The translations under genes and the position numbers were made by a program. A DNA stretch of 64,000 bases from Tetrahymena thermophila SB210. Its lineage: Eukaryota > Ciliophora > Oligohymenophorea > Hymenostomatida > Tetrahymenidae. The stretch lies in NCBI RefSeq assembly GCF_000189635.1, contig NW_002476209.1:124001-188000 (forward strand), given 5' to 3'. Below the pieces are notes generated by a model. The model ran no database searches, was not told the origin of the DNA, and was given only the letters and a program-made list of their open reading frames with translations. This document shows, piece by piece, positions 42,394 to 48,033 of this stretch; position 1 is the first letter of the stretch, and each line of letters starts with the position of its first letter.

Positions 42394-45300
42394 TCATAAA
42401 GTTATTGTGTTAAAGTATTCACATAAGTAGAGAGGATAAGCTAAAGTATTATCAAATAGAATGTAAGCATCACTTTTCTCAATAAAAACAGATGTATAAC
42501 CTTGCCTTTTTTTATAAATAATAATATTATTTAATATGGTTTTTATAAATTTAAAAAAATTTTTTGAAAAATATATATTTATTTTAAATTAATAATTTCA
42601 TTTTAAGAAATTTACTCTATGGCATATTCTAATAAGTTATCCATATCAAAGGTGTCTATTGTGTTGCTAGAATCTATTAAACATTTGCCCAAATATACCT
42701 TGCTTACAATAATTCTCCATTTAGATCTTTGTCCTTCGATGTCAGAAATATTTAATTATGTTTAGTTTTGAGTTGAAATATTAAATTTCTTCTTCTTAAA
42801 ATATCTATTTAATTTTTAAAAAGGTTAAAAATTATTTTTATATGTTTATTTTACTTTTCCTGTTCTTGTATTGCAATATTTTTTTTAAGAGAAAATATTG
42901 TTGGGCTTTCTCCGTAATACTTTAAAAATGAGGTTTCTAAGATTTTTCCTAATTGAGTTAACTCTGTAGAATGGAAGAGGATTATATAATCATAAAATTA
43001 TAAGGTATAATTATTTATATATGATGCAATAAATTTATTATTCTAGTCGAAATTCTAAATATTTTTAGTCATTTTTTATTTTTTGGCTTATTAAACCTGC
43101 AAAGCCTGTTAATTAACAGATTTTACCATTCTATAAATTTAAAACTTTAATTAATTTAGCAATATTTCTACAGATTTAAATTCATCAGAATTCTATTATA
43201 TTTATTTTATAGAATTTTATGTATGAGGACTTGGGGACCTGTTCGAAATAGGAGAATTTTATACTCTTAAAGACTTTATTGAAGACAATTCAAGTATGTA
43301 ATTAACTTAAGGGGAAATATGAGAATAAAAATCTTCATAGCTAAGGTTTATTTAATTAATTTTTGGGATATTAGAATTCTATGTTTTAGGGGTAGCTTGC
43401 TAGCTGTAGCATTTTTTCTTTTGCAAAAATAATTCAAAAGAGGTATTAGTCCTTTCATTGTTTATTAGAGTATTCATTTAGTTATTAGAAGAAAGGAAAG
43501 AGCAATCTCCATAATTAATAGCCTAATTACTAATAGGAACACATAAGCTCTGATCTTAGAATTATCTAAAAATATTGCTATTATCTTTGTTATTAGATAT
43601 TGGTGATAAATCTCTTAATCTTTGAATTTTTTATTGCTCTTAAATATAATCTAAATATTGCTCTTAATCTTATTCTTGAGTTTACAGTTTTTGCTGAGTA
43701 CTTCTCTAAGATTTCAAATTCCAATTAGTTGATAGATTTTAAGAAGAAAGCTACTGGTTATTGCTTTAGAGAGTATTACTTCTTTTCTTTTCACAGCTAC
43801 TTTCTCTTAATTTACCTCAAAAATATGAAATTGGGTATGCCGACCCAATTTCATATTTTTTACCTCTAAATGTTATTATTTATGGAGGAGTTTTTATTCT
43901 ATCTTCTAGTTTTTCCTATTATGATTAAAGCTATGAATTTATTCTTTCTTATTAAGTATCACATACATATCCAGATTCATGCTAGCTTTTAGTAATACAC
44001 TCAGTGTTGTTATATGCAAATTAATCAGAGTAAGACTATAAATTTTTATTAAATATATTGTAAAGTTAATCAAATCTTACATTTTCTACATTTTCAACAA
44101 ATGGCATAATATTTTAAATTATTTGCTCTATTGTTGAAGTACTGTAGTAAACATCACAGTTACTTAATACTTCCCTTATTATTAATTTTATGAATTTTTT
44201 TCTAACTGTTAATGATTGTTTATTGTTGGAAAAACATTTATTGTTCAGGTCATCAGCAATTAAATATTCCTAGAAAACTTTGAAAAACTCTTCTTCAGAT
44301 ATAAATATGTTAAAGTTAGAATCTTAATTTTGAGTATAAAAAGAATTAACTTAGTTTTAATTATTGTTATTTTTATAAATTTAGTTAGTCTTATTTCTCT
44401 CATTTGAAAATAATCTACAAGTTTAATTTTGCTGTTATTAAATGTATGTAAGTTTGTTTTATTACTCTACTTCATAAGAAGGTAGTCTCGAGCTTTAACT
44501 ATATAGTTTTTTGTTTATGTTATTAATAAAAGGAGAATTATTTGTTATTACAGGAATTTAAGAAGAATCTGAAAATAAAGGTTAGGAGCATAAGTAATCA
44601 TTTTAGATATTACTACTTTCAAACAAACTTTATTCTTTGTAATTATTAGTGCTATTGCTGTTACTATTGTTACGAGAATGTTAATAATAACTTTGATCTG
44701 TTTGCTTTTTATGGGCATTTCTGTTTTAATTACAATTATTATTTAAGAAAAGACTGCTAGCTTATTCTTAAGTGCTCATTAGAGAACTGCTTTATATACC
44801 AGTATTGCTAACAAAATGTTGATTTTACTAAATTCCTTGATTTTAACAACTTTCATCTTAAAATAGAATTTTATTATTACCATAATGTTGTACTTAGTTT
44901 TCTGGAAGTGTATTTTGTGCTTTAACATATTACATCTGATTATTGATTTATTCGTTTTAATTTAAATTCATTTATTGTCTTTCAGTTCGTATAGATGTAT
45001 TTCTAGATGAATGTTTATGTTCTAAATTAACAGTTTAGTTGTTTTTTATATCTTGAGGAAATTAGTCATTTTAAAAATAGTTCTCCATATCTTGTTAAAA
45101 TTTTGGAGAGCAAATAAAATCCGTTTTTGATGTAGCATTAGTTTGATCATTGGCTGAACGAGCTTATTATTTTTTATGAATAGATTTATTTTAAATTTAC
45201 TCGTTTTTAGAGTTAAATTTGCTTTTATTTTTATCTAACGAAGGCTCAAAAGTTTGAAAATTCTATTCTAATAGCTATTTACATTTGATGTAGTAAGGAT

Positions 45301-48033
45301 TTTGCAATAAATTTGGATCATCTCCCAACTTATGAATAATTTTTTGCATTAAAGTTTAATTCATTAACAACAAGGTTTCACCATCTTCTTTCCTCAAACT
45401 TTTTTTGGATTTTCTATCTTTGTAGTATTCTTTCAGCTAATTTAAATTTTTTCTATATTCCCTATTCATTTCATTAGTAATTTCACTTAATAAGCTACCA
45501 TCTGTAAGACTGCTTTCCATGGTTTCTATAGCAAGCTTTAACTATCTATCTTCTTCATCAATTTCATTAAAAGTTCTATTAGAATAATTTAAATTATTTT
45601 CTTTTTAAGATTGATCAAATTATTGATTTTAATTGACTGATTTATGGAAAATTTTATCTTTCAACAACTCAGTGCTTTAACAATTATTTGAATATTTTTT
45701 AAATTAATTGTTGTCATTAGTATTGTCTAGTTCACTCCTATTAGTATCAATCTAAGAAAACTTATTAGTAGAATATTTTTTTCTAAATGTTTAATTTGTT
45801 TAGTTTTAATTATCAATTTCTATTTAAGAAAAGTTCTCTCCTCTTTTACTCTTTAAGTTTTTATAGGAAAATTCTTCTTCATCAATTATTGAAAAATTCA
45901 GTTTATCATTCAATATTTTTGCCTCACTCTCATATTATTATTAGTCTTGGCTTTAATTTATTTTTTTTTTAAATAAATTTGACTCAAAAGCTTGCTCATA
46001 AAATAATTTTTGTTGGAAAATGTCATTTTGTTTTTAATTACCATCCCTTAAGTTAGCTTCTTCCTCTTCTTCATTAATGCATTAAATTTCTTTTTTTTCT
46101 TTTTTAAAATGATTTGAATTTTATAAATTTTTAGTATCTTAGTCAATATTTTAGCTACTATTTTAATTTTAGCTAACACTCTCTTCCATATTCTTTTTGC
46201 TGTTCAGGTATGTACTTTAGTCCAGACTCTATTATATATCACTTTTTTGAGTAATATATTACTAGTCTATTGACTTAAATATATCAGGTGAAAGTTAACA
46301 ATTTAATAAATTACTATTATTATCTTGTGAGTTGTATTAAAATTATATTTTTCTATTAGATACACTTGTAAAATGAGAGTTAAGTATTTTACTCTCTTCT
46401 TTGTTTGTTTCAAAAGGAGATAAACTTATTTTAGGTTTTTAATATTGATCTTAGTCATTAACTTCTTGATATATCTATTGAATATCATTGCTTTTATAGT
46501 AATTCCTTTCCTTTTGTTCAAGGGACTTTTAAATTAATTTAGCTTCCTAGTCGAATGGATTTCCTTCCATATTTAACTTCATTAAATTTTTTAGCTTAGA
46601 AATATTGTCAAAAAAATGATTATGATCATCTATATTATTATAGCTTATATCCAAATCCTCTAGAGCTTATAAATGTTAAGAAATAAATGAAATTTTTACT
46701 ATCCTATTACTAGAAATAAAAAGTTATTTCATTTTTAAGTAAATCTCATTTTCTTTAAATTTAATGTTGCTTAATTAATTCCTATTTAAATCAATTTTTT
46801 TAATTTTTAAATTATTTGATAAGTCTAAGTCAAGAAGAGAATTGTCAGACGATAGTAAATCTCTAAGAGAAATTAAATATTTTGCATCAAAATATTACAA
46901 ACCATTATGAGAAATATCAATTTTCTAAATAAAAATTTTTGGTTAAGTCTCTTTCCATTTGTTAGTTAAATTGTTTATTACTTTGAAACTTTCTATTTTA
47001 TTTTGCTGCAAATAAAGCTTTTTAATATAACAATTCTATTAAATAACAATATCCTCTAAGTCGTTTTATGAAATATCGAGAGTTTTTAAACTCTTATTTT
47101 CATGAAAATGGTCAACTATTGATTCGTCTTTTAAATGATTGTGCCTCATCAGTAATGTTTCTAAATTTTTCAACTCTTTTAAGTCTTCCAGTTAATCATC
47201 ACTGAGGAAGTTATTAGAGACATCTAAATATCTTAAATTTTAACATACTTTAATCCCTTAAACACTTATTAATCTATTATTTTTTAGTTCAATTAGAGTT
47301 AACGAGCTTCCTTATATATTTGTCAAAAAAGCAAATCTATTATCGTTTAGAATCAATTGATTAACTCCATTTGGGATATTTTTATTCATTCTGCTTAATT
47401 CGTTCTTACTTAAATCTAGCCTTTAGTATTATCCTTCTAATATACTTGCATCAGGAAATGTTTCAATCCCTAATGATTAATAAATACATTTATTAAAATT
47501 TAAAAATAAAATAAAAACAAAAAAATACTTTGATTAGATAAGTCTTTAGTGGTAATATGGTGATGAAAATTATAATCAGATTCATCATCAGAAATTATTT
47601 TTGAATTAGATTATGATATCGTTGTGTCACTTATTAAATTGCTTTGATTTTCAATAAATTGACAATTTAAATTTTATTAATTGAATGAATTTAATTTTTA
47701 TTATCTAAAATCAGGAAGATCTTATAGCTTCTAATATTTTATTTGCTAGGACTCAGTAATTAATCCTTATTTATTTGTTGCTTACTGTGTTAGTGTATCT
47801 GCACTGTACTGCAAGTAATCTATGCTTTCAAAATTCTCAGTAATCTTGATAGGATTATTATTATTAATGTCTACTGTTTAAGTATCAAAAGTATTATATG
47901 CCTGATTAATGCTCTTAAGATTCTACTAATTATAAGGGTGAATGACTATACTACTACTATCGTATTAAGAAGTAGAATTAAATACTGAACTAGAAGATGG
48001 GTCTGTTAATTAATCGTTAAGTATTTCACTCAT
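42394..48033 (-). CDS. Leucine-rich-repeat protein with a C-terminal PARP-like domain
   Basis: Five exons on the minus strand (48033-47529, 47469-43864, 43815-42855, 42804-42616, 42505-42394) join into 1790 residues. Residues about 170-470 are leucine-rich repeats of the SDS22 kind (RLDLSKNELSRM, LRYLDVSNNFLSDD, LKTLDISQNDLEDI, LEDLDISYNNIDDH). About 1100 residues of Gln/Asn/Ser-rich linker follow. The last 190 resemble a PARP ADP-ribosyltransferase core: QIYRMVKSVNQQAL, ILFHST (His1652), RIIVSKVYLGKCLIDS and AYILFDNTLAYPLYLCEY. The acidic residue expected just before the Tyr (Glu in active PARPs) is Ala1767, so it may be inactive. I checked the long second and third exons for in-frame TGA: the only one falls in the 48-nt intron. 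An ATG at 43072 is internal, not a separate gene start. Confidence 0.75.
43816..43863 (-). repeat. Palindromic 48-nt intron
   Basis: Intron of the LRR/PARP-like gene, GT...AG, phase 1. Perfect 18-bp arms (43819-43836 and 43843-43860) flank a 6-nt loop and fill almost the whole intron. The 8-bp word GAGGTAAA (minus strand) occurs at both ends, once across each splice site. Left unspliced, the stretch adds an in-frame TGA; removing it restores FRGKLRES. Confidence 0.85.

Follow-up and report, generated by a model that had tools for sequence, protein, structure and literature searches.

In the somatic nucleus of Tetrahymena thermophila most transposon DNA is eliminated. Passages of Hamilton et al. 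2016 (PMC5182062) report that transposon termini sometimes remain in the somatic genome after incomplete elimination; almost all of the high-confidence eliminated sequences described there lie between genes or in introns, the six cases in coding regions carry TTAA ends and are excised precisely, and 28% of elimination junctions lack a terminal repeat, another 47% having one of 1-4 bp. Inverted repeats at elimination boundaries are retained at a fixed distance from the junction, ~62 bp for one motif, according to part of Lin et al. 2019 (PMC6547420). That mobile DNA and somatic elimination shape Tetrahymena introns is described in sections of Xiong et al. 2019 (PMC6564038), where retrotransposons enlarge existing introns in LRR genes with 90-bp exons and the background intron size is given as ~50-56 bp. 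DNA-transposon introners, as portrayed in portions of Gozashti et al. 2022 (PMC9860276), are non-autonomous inverted-repeat elements that enter the coding sequence of many genes, duplicate a target of 3-9 bp and leave the message unchanged; the word start 'ciliat' is absent from the main text of that paper.

Here, we describe a 42-bp palindrome in the macronuclear genome of T. thermophila SB210, inside the minus-strand gene listed as TTHERM_00535650, which is best explained, as far as sequence can tell, as transposon tips that lie in an exon and are probably removed as a newly gained intron. All positions refer to the window, the whole stretch of 64 kb that was analysed. Like introners, the element is a non-autonomous inverted-repeat sequence within coding sequence, its target duplication falls in the same size range, and its predicted splicing would leave the message unchanged, as judged from the reading frame and the orthologous protein. 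Unlike introner families, it is represented by one exon insertion; 13 of the 17 solid loci of its family are single ends, two copies lie in predicted introns, and the window element consists of tips only. It is introner-like in mechanism, and the many similar intron copies in different genes that mark introners were not found among the loci read in this assembly. As with the macronuclear termini of PMC5182062, the family's somatic ends mostly lack partners, whereas the residue described here lies in an exon, is flanked by a TACCTC duplication and looks spliced. In contrast to the intron-length cycle of PMC6564038, in which existing introns grow, a new intron would arise. The junction distance in PMC6547420 is similar to the 59-83 bp ends of the family, whose tip holds TACCCA in place of the TACCNT motif given there. 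Among the titles and abstract beginnings listed from the open-licence literature we found no description of such a case.

The palindrome, its flanking repeat and the host gene

The arms of the palindrome (43819-43836 and 43843-43860) are 18 nt each and 100% complementary around a loop of 6 nt, as the original prediction of a 48-nt intron had stated; the splice ends just outside are GT...AG on the minus strand. Among perfect arms with loops of 3-24 nt they rank first in the window, six base pairs ahead of the runners-up, two of 12 bp made up entirely of A/T. Their length was attained in 0 of 60 first-order random sequences of the window's length and composition, the maxima of which included one of 17 and one of 15. 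The predicted RNA hairpin of 18 bp has a free energy of -22.1 kcal/mol (z -5.75).

An 8-bp word had been proposed to stand at both ends. It does so on the plus strand as TTTACCTC (43811-43818 and 43859-43866; minus-strand form GAGGTAAA), but only the six letters TACCTC lie wholly outside the palindrome, where they directly abut both ends of the element. The minus-strand frame 47389-43817 belongs to TTHERM_00535650, and the listed T. thermophila protein of 1385 aa ends in FRGKKYEIGSAYPISYF, having continued through the palindrome to a stop at its end. Excision of 43863-43816 rejoins the frame to give ...ITFRGKLRESSCEKKRSNTLQ..., in line with the expected read-through of the exon; with two ordinary downstream introns also taken out, the frame extends to 1790 aa and a stop at 42394.

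Library construction can produce perfect palindromes, and an assembly artefact would account for the arms in that way. We regard it as extremely improbable, since an insertion would be expected to show just the duplication, frame and family identity that the palindrome has. The residues encoded by the hairpin also close the public T. thermophila protein, although this protein probably derives from the same assembly and is hence not independent.

Table 1. Features of the insertion site, its host gene and the solid loci of the transposon family. Positions without a contig label are those of the window.
Feature	Position	Strand	Details
42-bp perfect palindrome	43819..43860	-	18-bp arms, 6-nt loop; left terminal-repeat tip of 30 nt (+ strand AAAAATATGAAATTGGGTATGCCGACCCAA) joined to right tip (TTTCATATTTTT)
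Target-site duplication, copy 1	43813..43818	+	TACCTC (gene strand GAGGTA); extends to TTTACCTC, 43811-43818
Target-site duplication, copy 2	43861..43866	+	TACCTC; extends to 43859-43866 counting 2 T of the element end
Predicted intron, 48 nt, phase 1	43816..43863	-	GT (43863-43862) to AG (43817-43816), splicing predicted; GTA (one target copy), 42-bp palindrome, GAG (other target copy)
Further 5' exon of TTHERM_00535650	~48033-47530	-	edges of the intervening intron approximate
Exon upstream of the insertion	43864..47467	-	LRR-containing protein TTHERM_00535650
Insertion point in the protein			between ITFRG and KLRES; an uninterrupted form would read AGAGGTAAATTAAG
Exon downstream of the insertion	42855..43815	-	missing from listed T. 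thermophila protein; matched by T. utriculariae ABPG72_008437
Neighbouring predicted intron, 50 nt	42805..42854	-	GTAAAATAAA...AAATAG; edges fitted to T. utriculariae protein
Exon YFKKKKFNIS to LEY.IE	42616..42804	-	matches T. utriculariae
Last predicted intron, 110 nt	42506..42615	-	GTAAAT...AAAAAAAG; edges fitted to T. utriculariae protein
Last exon and TGA stop	42394..42505	-	end coincides with T. utriculariae protein (NTITL vs NTISI)
Two-ended copy, 42 bp	window copy		repeat TACCTC
Two-ended copy, 146 bp	C199:655877-656022		6-bp repeat CCAACC (one extra A)
Two-ended copy, 498 bp	C193:80516-81013		repeat AACTTT
Two-ended copy, 136 bp	C288		no clean repeat
Single ends	C31, C57, C30, C75, C94, C97, C110, C112, C162, C262, C317, C436, C4

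The transposon family behind the arms

The proposed genome search for arm copies, carried out on the 101-Mb somatic assembly, showed that the arm is the inverted-repeat terminus of a transposon family with dispersed copies. Its tip, AAAAATATGANNNTGGGTAYRC, has exact matches at 17 places in 15 loci (0.012 expected from base composition); within two mismatches it is found at 40 places versus 7 for a reversed-pattern control, and a looser tip pattern within three mismatches at 76 versus 32. A 16-base stretch of the arm, with up to two mismatches, gave 422 places (6 exact) versus 340 for the reversed control, so that most arm matches at this looseness are due to chance. Nineteen loci were read, comprising 4 two-ended copies, 13 single ends and two doubtful members (C131 and C302), which were left out of the 17 solid loci; the search for a second tip spanned 3-kb loci, i.e., ~1.5 kb inward from the tip.

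Three of the four two-ended copies have a 6-bp target-site duplication, extendable in each case by 1-2 bases into the T-run of the end; none was seen at C288, an element that matched itself alone when used as query. The family thus has the dispersed, shared inverted-repeat ends and the fixed-length target-site duplication that characterize DNA transposons and MITEs. The TTAA flanks and CACTTT inverted repeat of eliminated sequences in coding regions are not those of the window copy, which has TACCTC as its flank and AAAAATATG as its end. Insertion of a transposon with target duplication is almost certain, and the original idea of a short palindromic element that duplicated its target and supplied splice sites is well supported, with the dispersed inverted-repeat family as its source. 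Template switching or hairpin replication within a long-established intron, with no transposon involved, might instead have produced the palindrome; the tip itself holds a small palindrome, TTGGGT-ATGCCG-ACCCAA, from which fold-back copying could build full arms. This origin is disfavoured and very unlikely, because the arm is a family tip present at many places, the flanking repeat abuts the element exactly, and two two-ended relatives share the habit of a 6-bp repeat.

Likeness to the family is retained from the tip for ~59-69 bases at nine of the single ends and for 83 bases at three, followed by divergence; these lengths are bounded by the consensus lengths used (69 and 83). The 83-bp likeness characterizes a second subfamily with GGCGT after the tip (C97, C110 and C4; extracts L042, L043 and L057), versus 59-69 bp in the main subfamily. 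That these lengths are nearly constant points to elimination at a fixed boundary within the transposon end. The remaining single end, C31, leaves the family near base 31.

The fold-back form itself is confined to the window. Across the assembly, the palindrome core with loops allowed from 2 to 12 was found in the window copy alone. The same holds for the full form in a search of the 101-Mb assembly within three mismatches, in which six other places (5 loci) proved to be ordinary longer family ends. A numerous mini-element system is rejected for the AAAAATATGANNNTGGGTAYRC family on the strength of this single fold-back copy, and the suggestion of a live intron-generating system of many units is not supported by the search of this assembly. 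Intron creation by a second copy was shown for none of the other 18 loci read, the contexts of C199 and C31 being examined and the remaining copies judged by flank G+C.

The C199 copy (L050 1501-1646) is nearly palindromic and probably sits in an intron, and the gene around it is kinesin-like, with coding stretches upstream that match KIF18/19-type kinesins (22 matches, none from Tetrahymena); no solved-structure relative of the gene piece was found. When its empty site is rejoined, the frame reaches a stop ~10 codons past the target word, and this element has therefore most likely landed in an intron that was already there. The C31 copy (C31:597458-597488, L034), read by eye, also lies in a predicted intron, in a gene that we take to be potassium-channel-like (pore TTIGYGDYTP, next exon EEKIFISIVALIATNV). 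It is identical to the window copy in 31/31 bases, loop included, and is the sole other copy with the window loop and arm haplotype, its right arm being replaced by unrelated sequence. In both copies the likeness to the family breaks off right after ACCCAA, which points to a mini-form common to the two or to a junction that is favoured. In C193 the interior (L048 1501-1998) contains a 100-N run and a stretch that repeats the 3' portion of 5S rRNA; a complete match to 5S rRNA (Rfam 96 bits, L048 1868-1984) runs into the right tip.

Predicted splicing and the orthologous protein

Among the 7988 candidates scored, those sharing most words, one other close relative of the host protein was returned, T. 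utriculariae ABPG72_008437 (1786 aa); five more matches were weak. The proposed comparison of the orthologous site was made at the protein level: the T. utriculariae protein reads straight through the insertion site (ITFRGKLRESSYEKKRSNTLQ), its PPQIITFRGKLRESSYEKKRSN corresponding to PPQIITFRGKLRESSCEKKRSN in the spliced T. thermophila model, and an intron at the same place in T. utriculariae is compatible with this. With full lengths of 1786 and 1790 aa, ortholog and spliced model are collinear to the stop. Upstream of the site identity is 0.885, 0.854, 0.778 and 0.870 in four blocks (354/400, 339/397, 231/297 and 235/270; summed 1159/1364, 0.850), and downstream it is 0.793 and 0.853 in two (119/150 and 145/170; summed 264/320, 0.825).

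Taken from the letters, the restored frame and this conservation argue for splicing, and a spliced intron gained in the T. thermophila lineage is probable. The predicted 5' end GTAAAAAAT resembles the neighbouring intron's GTAAAATAA, and the size of 48 nt is close both to the 50 nt of that neighbour and to the Tetrahymena background. The element might alternatively be real and unspliced, a recent insertion that truncates the protein at 1385 aa and leaves the downstream exons as a fresh relic. The listed protein, which enters the palindrome and stops there, agrees with such a truncation, and the perfect arms and the full match to C31 point to youth; a very young insertion would leave downstream exons intact-looking even in a broken gene. 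Base pairing in the hairpin takes in the nucleotides immediately within the two splice sites and might interfere with splicing, and the predicted acceptor GAG is unlike the TAG, TAG and AAG of the three other acceptors read in the gene. Identity is also slightly lower after the site overall, and over the first 150 residues past it conservation falls somewhat below that of three of the four blocks upstream. Against truncation, however, both downstream blocks fall inside the upstream range of 0.778-0.885, the ~420 downstream codons, two introns and stop are intact, and splice dinucleotides, frame and length all suit an intron. T. thermophila splice predictions have moreover often been wrong: according to a passage of PMC3274533, 48.3% of the splice sites seen by RNA-seq agreed with the 2008 release, and the listed protein may come from that release or another. 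On balance we consider an unspliced insertion unlikely and a spliced intron the better account.

Relative to the spliced model, the listed T. thermophila protein lacks ~420 C-terminal residues, encoded with two introns (window 42394-43815), and the gene model of TTHERM_00535650 probably needs revision. Two protein searches with the gene, one of which scored the 7988 candidates sharing most words, returned no T. thermophila protein in spliced form. A downstream protein with a listing of its own was likewise absent at E <= 0.001 among 2459 candidates, for a query that was out of frame past 42854 and a length window that left out the 1786-aa ortholog. No paper naming TTHERM_00535650 was found in the open-licence literature.

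From transposon tips to a candidate intron

Full family members have the tip ...TGGGTATGCCGACCCAAGCC... and, at the opposite end, ...CATACCCA...TCATATTTTT. The window copy consists of bases 1-30 of the left end and the last 12 bases of the right end, with the word ACCCAA common to both. A simple internal deletion between two ACCCAA words would yield this sequence, and so would fold-back copying at the tip's own small palindrome. The birth of the intron could have proceeded as follows. Briefly, in the lineage of T. thermophila a DNA transposon with terminal inverted repeats would have entered a TTHERM_00535650 exon, duplicating a target that holds AG/GT. The somatic genome would now keep the two tips back to back, fused at ACCCAA, so that a 42-bp palindrome stands between two copies of GAGGTA. 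In gene direction, the first copy (43861-43866) would provide GTA as the 5' splice site, which the A-run of the tip extends to GTAAAAAAT, and the second (43813-43818) would provide GAG as the 3' splice site, with TATTTTT of the tip before it. Excision of 48 nt from the RNA would restore the uninterrupted message. Either orientation of the insertion would offer nearly the same signals, because the ends are inverted repeats. The sequence shows the palindrome, the duplication, membership in the family, the restored frame, the continuous orthologous protein and intact exons downstream; from it we infer that the spliceosome removes the element, in which order it inserted and lost its interior, and that the change was a gain in T. 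thermophila.

Where the interior was lost bears on this model. The 42 bp could be what the soma retains of a transposon that is far longer in the germline and whose interior is eliminated during macronuclear development, the tips then being spliced; this is compatible with the preferred explanation and does not exclude it. The 13 single ends of the somatic assembly fit the residues of incomplete elimination reported in parts of PMC5182062, so that the window copy could be such a residue. Twelve of these 13 are alike over ~59-69 or 83 bp inward from the tip, and C31 departs from the family at the window copy's own base. In the window copy, however, 30 bases of one end and 12 of the other survive, where 59-83 are usual, and the junction ACCCAA(T), of 6-7 bp, is longer than is usual in the junction figures of PMC5182062. 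A fixed internal deletion in the germline explains the same sequence and is somewhat more likely, since tips so short and a GC-containing junction of that length would be unusual for a residue. We therefore view the somatic leftover as possible but doubtful. More doubtful still is a two-stage relay, in which a germline transposon sits in an exon, its interior is lost by imprecise DNA elimination, and the variable tips are spliced from the RNA.

It is rare to see the birth of an intron together with the donor family, the target duplication, a relative that lacks the interruption, and the reading frame. The would-be intron consists of transposon tips and target word only, and each splicing signal can thus be traced to the duplicated exon or to the tip. 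The order of events is directly testable, because T. thermophila is genetically tractable and keeps separate germline and somatic genomes. If our inference is right, the listed TTHERM_00535650 protein is short by ~420 residues. If the relay holds, it would explain how imprecise DNA elimination is tolerated inside exons, and transposon insertion would be a route to new introns in ciliates. If the palindrome is spliced, an intron birth would have been caught in the act, from a 42-base scrap of a transposon's two ends.
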